Shown here: piece by piece, positions 29,016-34,655 of the stretch
How the letters are laid out: every line of letters begins with the position of its first letter
How positions within the stretch are numbered: the stretch's first letter is position 1
Assembly (NCBI GenBank): GCA_947503115.1
Contig: CANNCS010000024.1
Location: 1-41,945, forward strand
Direction of reading: 5' to 3'
Source of the DNA: an uncultured Marivita sp.
Lineage (GTDB): Bacteria > Pseudomonadota > Alphaproteobacteria > Rhodobacterales > Rhodobacteraceae
Length of the DNA stretch: 41,945 nt
Program-made: the position numbers and the translations under genes
Notes under the pieces: generated by a model
The model's database searches: none
What the model was told of the DNA's origin: nothing
Seen by the model: only the letters and a program-made list of their open reading frames with translations

Positions 29016-29277
29016 GTCATACAGGCCGGGAAAGGCCACCTCTTCAAGTGTTGCGTTTTGCCTGCCCAAAACATGACCCCTGCAGCAGCGCAGCAACACC
29101 CATCTCACGCCCGCTTGATCAACTGCTCCGCTTTACGTGAGAATTCGGGCGAGTTCCCACCAGATTGAAACAATCCCGGCCACCACTCCCGTGCTTTGTT
29201 GCAATCTGTGTCAGGCCCACACGCCGCCGTGTGCCAATGTTTCAAACCAGCACCACATTCATGTCGAGCTGTGTCTC

Positions 29278-29381
29278 TTCTCTGTTTTGATAACACCTCG
29301 GGGCAGTCGCCCATCGGGCGACGGGGGCAGCGCCCTCAAATTGCGTTCCGTCACGGAACGCACCCGATGCGTCCACGCATC
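29278..29381 (+). repeat. dispersed structured repeat, copy 1
   Basis: Blocks in order: TTCTCTGTTT, then CTCGGGG, a hairpin GTCGCCC-ATC-GGGCGAC (29306-29322), GGGGGCAGCGCCCT, a hairpin GCGTTCCG-TCA-CGGAACGC (29343-29361), GATGCGTCC (29366-29374), the last forming a further hairpin GATGCG-TCCA-CGCATC. The same ordered blocks recur at 33782-33866. Copy 1 has an extra inserted hairpin between CTCGGGG and GGGGCAGCGCCCT. Confidence 0.7.
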
Positions 29382-29425
29382 TTACCCCTGATTAAGAAAA
29401 ACCCTGAAAATCCCCGACACAGCGT

Positions 29426-33581: not shown

Positions 33582-33884
33582 GGGAAACCTCGTTTTAAGA
33601 AGCCCAAGCCGTGCCAAGCGGCGCGGGCCAAGTCAACGGAAAGGATGTGAATTCAGACAAAAGGTGACGGAACGCCCACAGTTCGGGGCGGTAAAGCAAG
33701 ATCAGCTGTCTCGTCGGATATCAGTCAGATTTGTCATGCTGAGGTCATCAGGCAAAACCGATTGCAAAACAAGCCCCATTTTTCTCTGTTTCAAAAATAC
33801 CTCGGGGTCTGGGGCAGCGCCCTAGCCAGATTTTTCAAAAATCTGCAACGCCCCAGCGATGCGTCCTTGCACAGCGCAGTCCAG
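33582..33884. other. intergenic region between truA and argD
   Basis: About 300 bp with no convincing gene. The half next to argD should hold its promoter (minus strand), which I could not place securely. The half next to truA contains copy 2 of the structured repeat. Confidence 0.6.
33782..33866 (+). repeat. dispersed structured repeat, copy 2
   Basis: TTCTCTGTTT (33782-33791), CTCGGGG (33801-33807), GGGGCAGCGCCCT (33811-33823), a hairpin CAGATTTT-TCA-AAAATCTG (33827-33845) and GATGCGTCC (33858-33866), in the same order and strand as the copy at 29278-29381. The hairpin stem sequence differs from copy 1, but stem length (8 bp) and the TCA loop are the same. On the opposite strand it lies just downstream of truA. 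Confidence 0.7.
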
Positions 33885-34655
33885 TCACCCGCAGAACGGA
33901 TCGTCAGGATAGCCCACGCCCATCAAATACAACCCGTGCGGCGGACAGACCGGACCACAGGCTGCGCGGTCCCGCGCCTCCAATGCCTGCTTCACATCCA
34001 CCGGCTCCCATGCGCCCGAACCGACCCGTTCAAGCGTGCCAACAAAACTGCGAACCTGATTGTGCAGAAACGACCGCGCGCGCAGGCGAAATTGGAACTC
34101 TGTGCCCCACTCGGTCTCGACACAAGTGATGTCCAAAGCATCCAACGTCTTCACCGGCGACGCCGCCTGACACATGGTCGACCGGAACGTGGTAAAGTCA
34201 TGCAAACCAATCAGATGTCGCGCTGCTGCCTGCATCGGTCCAAGCTCCAGATCGTGCTTCACCTGCCAGACCTGCCCCGCCTCCAGCGTCAAGGGTGCAC
34301 GGCGCGGCACCAAGCGGAATAGATATCTCCGCTCAAGCGCCGTGAACCGCGCATGCCAATCCTCTGCAACCTCGGCCGCATCAACAATCGCCACCGGCAA
34401 CGGCTTCAGATGGTGGTTCAACGCCTCTGACAAACGGAACGGTGACCAGTCCTTGGCCAGATCGCAATGGCAGACCTGCTCACGCGCATGAACACCCGCA
34501 TCGGTGCGCCCGGCTGCGGCAATCGTGTGCGCGCCCGGCTCCAACTTCGCCAGAGCAGCTTCGATCGCGCCCTGCACCGATGGCTGGTCCGCCTGCCGCT
34601 GCCACCCGGCAAACGGCGCACCATCATATTCGACTTTCAAGGCAAATCTGGGCAT
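33885..34655 (-). CDS. truA: tRNA pseudouridine(38-40) synthase
   Basis: A 256-residue TruA: [14 protein letters not shown] (7-20), catalytic Asp52 in [10 protein letters not shown], and Phe-Leu-His-Asn-Gln-Val-Arg near the C-terminus. It modifies uridines 38-40 in the anticodon arm of many tRNAs. It is divergent from the ycjX gene across a 66-bp gap; no coding neighbour is close downstream. Confidence 0.96.

Follow-up and report, generated by a model that had tools for sequence, protein, structure and literature searches.

The window, the whole stretch of 41,945 nucleotides of an uncultured Marivita sp. that was analysed, carries two copies of a dispersed repeat, each beside a hairpin. Judged from their sequences, the two hairpins appear to be unrelated and to come from different modules. 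The reading that we favour, at a probability of about 0.5, is a mosaic of independently gained and lost palindromic modules, comparable to a BIME, which would act mostly as RNA hairpins at the 3' ends of mRNAs. It builds on the repetition of the modules, the 3'-end location, the covariation of the stems and which modules are present or missing at orthologous sites. The modules would comprise a family-wide core (hairpin C, an optional hairpin D and tail E), a genus-specific AB repeat and local 3'-end hairpins.

The core repeat, its location and its tail

Read in the minus-strand sense, the core consists of hairpin C (GGGGC-GCT-GCCCC), hairpin D and tail E (CCCCGAGGTATTTTTGAAACAGAGAAGA). Hairpin D is variable and optional (e.g. 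GTCGCCC..GGGCGAC), with AGA in its place otherwise. A model of C-D-E only, R1, was built from 21 of the 23 copies then known (alignment A1, with L035 and L013 omitted); the disputed stem was left out of R1 and can therefore be tested without bias. R1 gave at least 54 matches in the source genome at E<=1, of which at least 48 at E<0.02, and two in the window, both on the minus strand. The core of copy 1 (29276-29339, 73.5 bits) has hairpin C, hairpin D (GTCGCCCGATGGGCGAC) and tail E, and the core of copy 2 (33780-33826, 54.3 bits) has hairpin C (GGGCGCTGCCCC), AGA and tail E CCCCGAGGTATTTTTGAAACAGAGAAAA, without hairpin D. The E-values of R1 and of R2, the model of AB, are rough, and all copy counts are lower bounds, since only part of the candidates was scored per genome (150 of 1946 in the source genome with R1, 43 per genome in the order sample and 48 in the R2 search of the order). 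A pairing of the C loop (CTCTG) with the tail (CAGAG) was considered and dropped, because copies with the loop CGCTG retain CAGAG. In L369, L372, L379, L408 and L084 a longer hairpin, GGGGTCGTCCGTTGG...CCCAATGGACGACGCCCC, substitutes for hairpin C before tail E, as a further swappable module.

The core sits at the 3' ends of genes. With gene calls from a simple codon-usage script, 97 core copies could be scored (46 in the source genome and 51 in other genomes), of which 32 lay between convergent, 61 between co-directional and only 4 between divergent genes. Divergent pairs made up 6 of the 35 adjacent pairs of the window background (Fisher p 0.02 against the core copies, this background being small) and 6 of the 13 pairs with gaps of >=60 nt (p 0.0001). 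Between co-directional genes, sense copies outnumbered antisense copies (39 vs 22, p 0.04), an excess that comes from the source genome (22 to 9, p 0.03; other genomes 17 to 13, p 0.58). The remaining copies were 13 convergent and 2 divergent in the source genome, where 46 of 49 were scorable (2 were inside called ORFs, 1 was at the end of a contig), and 19 convergent and 2 divergent in the other genomes, where 9 of 60 copies lay within called ORFs, some of them perhaps wrong calls, and stand outside the 97. In 23 cases a gene of the opposite strand ended on the tail side, and in 16 of them its stop codon lay no more than 11 nt from tail E.

In the order sample, R1 matched 109 of the 121 genomes and 54 of the 58 genera, all of one family. 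In the class sample, the source genome aside, it matched 2 of 141, both weakly and both in other families; at least one genome of the same family, G017, was in that sample and gave no R1 match. A pattern search of named genomes returned at least 120 stretches, and among the 80 listed the titles of 79 point to what we take to be Rhodobacterales or Rhodobacteraceae and one to Alphaproteobacteria only.

Tail E looks like a lineage-specific recognition tag, as judged from its sequence in different genomes. After 16 of the 109 copies without a clean anchor had been dropped, the last 10 bases of the tail in the other genomes had an identity of 0.953 within genomes vs 0.735 between them, and the 3-base spacer an identity of 0.513 vs 0.429. 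The source genome is the exception, with three linked tail subfamilies and a within-genome tail identity of 0.731. In G094, G095, G037, G060 and the loci L154-L213, the tail was seen to be near-uniform per genome, with a hypervariable spacer of 2-3 bases after TATTT.

Searches of Rfam placed only two tRNAs in the window above the gathering threshold, and a relaxed search of six loci gave two sub-threshold matches (E 0.06 and 0.2). Literature queries with sequence strings, and with the family combined with repeat or RNA-motif terms, returned no paper that we recognised as describing the element. A plasmid search with a neighbouring full copy gave three records, two without an annotated feature under the match and the third unannotated.

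The hairpins beside the two cores

The first-pass annotation had compared the hairpin CAGATTTT-TCA-AAAATCTG of copy 2 (33827-33845) with GCGTTCCG-TCA-CGGAACGC of copy 1 (29343-29361) and had read the near lack of shared letters, at a constant length, loop and position, as stem covariation. The letters of both hairpins were confirmed, as were the blocks that flank them, GGGGCAGCGCCC (33811-33822 and 29324-29335) and GATGCGTCC (33858-33866 and 29366-29374). GGGGCAGCGCCC is a real repeat, with 12 sites in the source genome vs 0 for the reversed control. The constant position did not hold, the gaps to the blocks in copy 1 and copy 2 being 7 vs 4 nt on one side and 4 vs 12 nt on the other. Nor does the GATGCGTCC block tie the two copies together: among the other 14 truA orthologues with a core, none reads GGACGCATC on the minus strand at this block, and 8 have GCGCATCGC. 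Moreover, R2 matches copy 1 only. The argument of one stem in different letters, and hence of covariation, fails, since the stems seem to come from two different modules. A demonstrable homology of the two stems was rejected on the R2 mismatch at copy 2 and the genome-specific GATGCGTCC, although the truA hairpins and AB may have a distant common origin.

Judging by its match to R2, the copy 1 stem is part of AB, a two-hairpin repeat in which GATGCG-nnnn-CGCATC (A) is followed by a TTTCCGTTGACGGAAA-like hairpin (B). The AB module of copy 1 lies at 29337..29389 on the minus strand (hairpin A GATGCGTGGACGCATC, hairpin B GCGTTCCGTGACGGAACGC; 28.6 bits, E 5e-6). Copy 2 had no R2 match at E<=1 in the search of the window, and with filters off scored 6.2 bits over 301 bases. 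All 17 genus genomes have the A palindrome, at 11-53 sites each, against 0-1 for a reversed control pattern. In two genomes 50 of the 56 A sites have a B-like 16-mer partner, at a spacing of 5 or 6 nt in 48; the six sites without such a partner, and L362, were excluded from the AB alignment (A2, 49 sequences). At least 30 R2 matches were found in the source genome at E<=0.001, of which 9 of 30 abut an R1 core or lie within 35 nt of one and 21 do not. These proportions rest on the R1 and R2 positions, used instead of a regular expression for an E-like tail near AB sites, whose count of 7 of 50 was an undercount by eye. In the order sample R2 matched 3 of 121 genomes, namely those that represent the window's genus in that sample.

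Copy 2 lies between truA and argD. The truA ORF (33885..34655, minus strand; tRNA pseudouridine(38-40) synthase) matches NCBIfam TIGR00071 above the cut-off and has a homologue in 17 of 17 genus genomes; the hairpins come after its stop codon. The core was found here at 15 of the 18 loci searched, corresponding to 15 of the 17 genus genomes, and the stem, too, keeps its place in 15 of 17. This hairpin (CAGATTTTTGAAAAATCTG, 33827..33845, minus strand), which has no R2 match, shows compensatory changes in 15 genomes of the genus, the source genome included. The orthologous sequences point to a further hairpin at 33856..33877 on the minus strand (GCGCTGCGC-nnn-GCGCATCGC in most relatives), which is weakened in the source genome, where the GATGCGTCC block lies inside it. 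On sequence grounds, the copy 2 stem is best described as a truA 3'-end hairpin. In L098 an AB module (54.8 bits) stands at the truA site, and no core was found there; AB in the place where 15 genomes have the truA hairpin and the core suggests an exchange of modules at one site. In L097 the gene order at the truA locus differs.

Copy 1 is one of the rare copies between divergent genes, which speaks against the favoured reading, and lies upstream of rnpA on its other side. The neighbour opposite the rnpA side, which we take to be a TVP38-like gene, had no NCBIfam match. An R1 core was found at the copy 1 site in 11 of 17 genus loci, at low scores (22-44 bits) in L135, L136, L139, L141 and L142, and none was found in L137, L138, L144, L145, L149 and L150. 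AB stood beside it at 6 of 17 loci (R2, E<0.001), and in L147 and L148 the core is present and the adjoining AB absent. Among relatives the A stem of this site is replaced, with CAAGATGCG/CGCATCTTG vs CACGATGCG/CGCATCGTG vs CAGGATGCG/CGCATCCTG. The matched stretch of the TVP38-like protein contains one in-frame stop in L136, L138, L141, L144, L147 and L149, perhaps due to a start taken too far upstream.

Within each stem family, AB and the truA orthologues, the covariation is real in the aligned sequences. Over the 16 pairs of the 49 AB sequences, 96.0% of the cells were paired vs 82.5% after shuffling; eight pairs had changed on both sides, with 98 such cells vs 29.8 in the shuffled alignments. 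The covariation score was 0.336 vs 0.085 shuffled (reached in 0 of 500), and at most 0.081 with the partners slid. The B sites were picked with a 16-mer that is palindromic in its own right, so that the inner B pairs are partly selected; 84 of the 98 changes fall on pairs free of this choice, namely the outer B pairs (29-48, 30-47) and the A pairs (7-26, 8-25). In the truA stem of 15 genomes, where compensatory changes at two pairs were counted without a shuffled control, pair 2 reads A-T in 12 genomes and G-C in 3, and pair 4 is G-C in 9, T-A in 2, A-T in 1 and unpaired in 3. The other exceptions are a broken pair 1 (G-A) in one genome and a G-T at pair 0 in one. L088 and L094 are two of the three G-C rows at pair 2 and both have T-A at pair 4; the independent events are probably few, because these two look like close relatives. 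Hence the earlier claim of pairing kept over sequence stands within the AB family and among the truA orthologues and falls for copy 1 against copy 2.

The presence of a hairpin beside the core was also examined across the source genome. Upstream of C, a hairpin scoring >=7 was found in 24 of 48 copies (L083 was omitted from this count and from the wobble tally below); shuffles reached this score in 1.5%, and control stretches lying farther upstream in 2 of 144. The other 24 of the 48 lack a strong upstream hairpin, and copies without complementary stems are part of what the first-pass annotation had named as refuting its idea. A chance hairpin scoring >=8 occurred in 0.46% of base-shuffled 48-mers, so a stem this good is not chance. 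Gene ends that lack an E-like motif had an equally strong hairpin in 16 of 40 cases, those with the motif in 25 of 41. Hairpins are thus common at gene ends without the element, and proximity alone does not place a stem in the repeat.

RNA, DNA and the competing explanations

An RNA strand tolerates G-U pairs and not A-C pairs. In pairs 3-10 of AB stem B, which were picked after the table had been seen, G-U exceeded A-C (17 vs 5, p 0.017); with A pairs 1-2 added the counts were 18 vs 10 (p 0.18). Seven tRNAs used as a check gave 6 G-U and 0 A-C. Hairpin D contained hardly any wobble, with 142 Watson-Crick, 1 G-U, 0 A-C and 3 other pairs in 24 source-genome stems. The 55 stems of other genomes had 352 Watson-Crick, 0 G-U, 0 A-C and 2 other pairs, and lean to perfection because of the choice of rows (60 copies among the matches listed, with source-genome and many richest-genome rows omitted). 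Such near-perfection would be unusual for RNA, though the search favours perfect stems. In the A/B region, G-U vs A-C was 7 vs 4 in the source genome and 6 vs 7 in other genomes; the truA orthologues gave 1 vs 0 and the copy 1 orthologues 1 vs 3. Predicted folds of copy 1 were more stable than shuffles, with z of -2.83 on the minus and -4.66 on the plus strand, the stronger being opposite to the assumed sense strand. Those of copy 2 were not (z -0.58 minus, -0.98 plus). Taken together, the wobble counts and folds lend mild support to RNA for AB and give no decision for D.

As RNA hairpins, the modules would form the 3' untranslated end of the upstream gene's transcript, or of both transcripts where genes converge. 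The transcript would fold into a row of stable hairpins, which might block 3'-to-5' decay, aid the end of transcription, or both; the modules themselves would be mobile, and a trans factor may read tail E. In its stronger form, this would be a two-part 3'-end signal common to the family Rhodobacteraceae, with a structural hairpin pair and the tail E tag, read by a trans factor and co-changing by lineage. We regard that extension as quite improbable: the single tag per genome (0.953) vs the next genome (0.735), with spacer and stems drifting, speaks for it, and the three tag subfamilies side by side in the source genome (0.731) speak against it.

A conceivable, though rather unlikely, alternative is that the palindromes act in DNA, as cruciforms or single-stranded hairpins that gyrase, a transposase or a nucleoid protein would recognise, or are kept perfect by template-switch mutation, the 3' location reflecting tolerated insertion. 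The nearly wobble-free D stems and the lack of a general excess of G-U over A-C are in its favour, as is the lineage-uniform tail E with its free 3-nt spacer, which resembles a protein-recognised site. The 17 G-U vs 5 A-C of AB stem B argue for RNA instead. A transposase of the RAYT type is further disfavoured, since 4 of the 17 genus genomes carry Y1_Tnp and neither R1 nor R2 matched at E<=0.1 in the 10 loci that surround it. It is improbable that the copies are selfish or relic repeats without a present role, with stem differences that merely separate subfamilies. The patchy copy 1 site, with its core at 11 of 17 loci (several low-scoring) and AB at 6 of 17, and the 24 of 48 cores without a strong upstream hairpin would suit such decay. 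The 3'-end bias of the core, its retention beside truA in 15 of the 17 genomes of the genus and the compensatory changes in the stem adjoining it would not.

That the hairpins as a whole are ordinary 3'-end structures of the adjacent genes, with no relation to the repeat, is a very improbable account. Equally strong hairpins at gene ends without an E-like motif, and the absence of an AB match at copy 2, fit this account; the many A palindromes per genome and their regular B-like partners, which make AB a real repeat, contradict it. It is likely to be right for the copy 2 hairpin and wrong for that of copy 1.

The mosaic that we favour is ordinary in kind, being REP/BIME-like, and apparently undescribed for Rhodobacteraceae within the searches made. 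It would supply the anatomy of an intergenic repeat that is common in a large and much-studied family of bacteria and has no Rfam match in the loci tested. If the element sets transcript ends, the reading of operons in these genomes would be affected. Moreover, AB is a compact case in which wobble asymmetry might separate RNA-level from DNA-level selection on a palindrome.

Relation to known elements

Like the REP and BIME elements of gamma-proteobacteria and others, the core and AB are short extragenic palindromes that occur in tens of copies, lie mostly downstream of genes and form mosaics; inverted pairs are another shared trait. Both are short, palindromic, extragenic and present in many copies, as REPs are, and modules combine independently as in BIMEs, with the core lacking AB in L147 and L148 and AB lacking the core in L098. 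Unlike REP/BIME, the present element has a tail E that is long, conserved and unpaired, along with a strongly conserved C and a length-variable D. By inspection of alignments A1 and A2, no invariant GTAG or unpaired CGTC tag was seen at the foot of a stem. A RAYT-driven REP was rejected as the sole account, no linked RAYT transposase having been found in the genus.

The CGTC-tagged REPs of alpha-proteobacteria are described in the main text of their report as single stems of 8-9 bp with a terminal unpaired CGTC (PMC3733652). As characterised there (PMC3733652), they are likewise palindromes without a dedicated transposase and mostly downstream of genes, whereas in the present element CGTC, where found, lies in the paired hairpin D. 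Nine family and order names sought in that main text gave 0 matches. HRC-8-4, another structured motif and one described as exclusive to Rhodobacterales, is described in the part of its report that concerns it as having a terminator U-run and lying mainly between ccoNOQP and ccoGHIS or next to hvrB (PMC8632094). In contrast to that description, the element studied here is scattered over tens of places and lacks such a U-run; copy 2 lies between truA and argD and copy 1 beside rnpA, not between cco operons.

Like Rho-independent terminators, the element places a GC-rich hairpin at the 3' ends of genes. No T-run directly follows hairpin C or D on the sense strand, so the element is no classic terminator, and a terminator was rejected as the sole account. 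A terminator scan gave 0 minus-strand matches in the element, and 9 matches in 5 kb vs 5.2 in shuffles; one terminator-like match lies on the plus strand at 33809-33825, followed by CCAGATTTTT. In a few copies, L059, L155 and L176 among them, the core stands just behind a terminator-like hairpin with a T-run. Inverted core pairs with their tails face to face, as in REP dimers, were seen in the source genome (G000) at C37:26687+/26780-, C11:53899+/54078- and C8:52321+/52505-.
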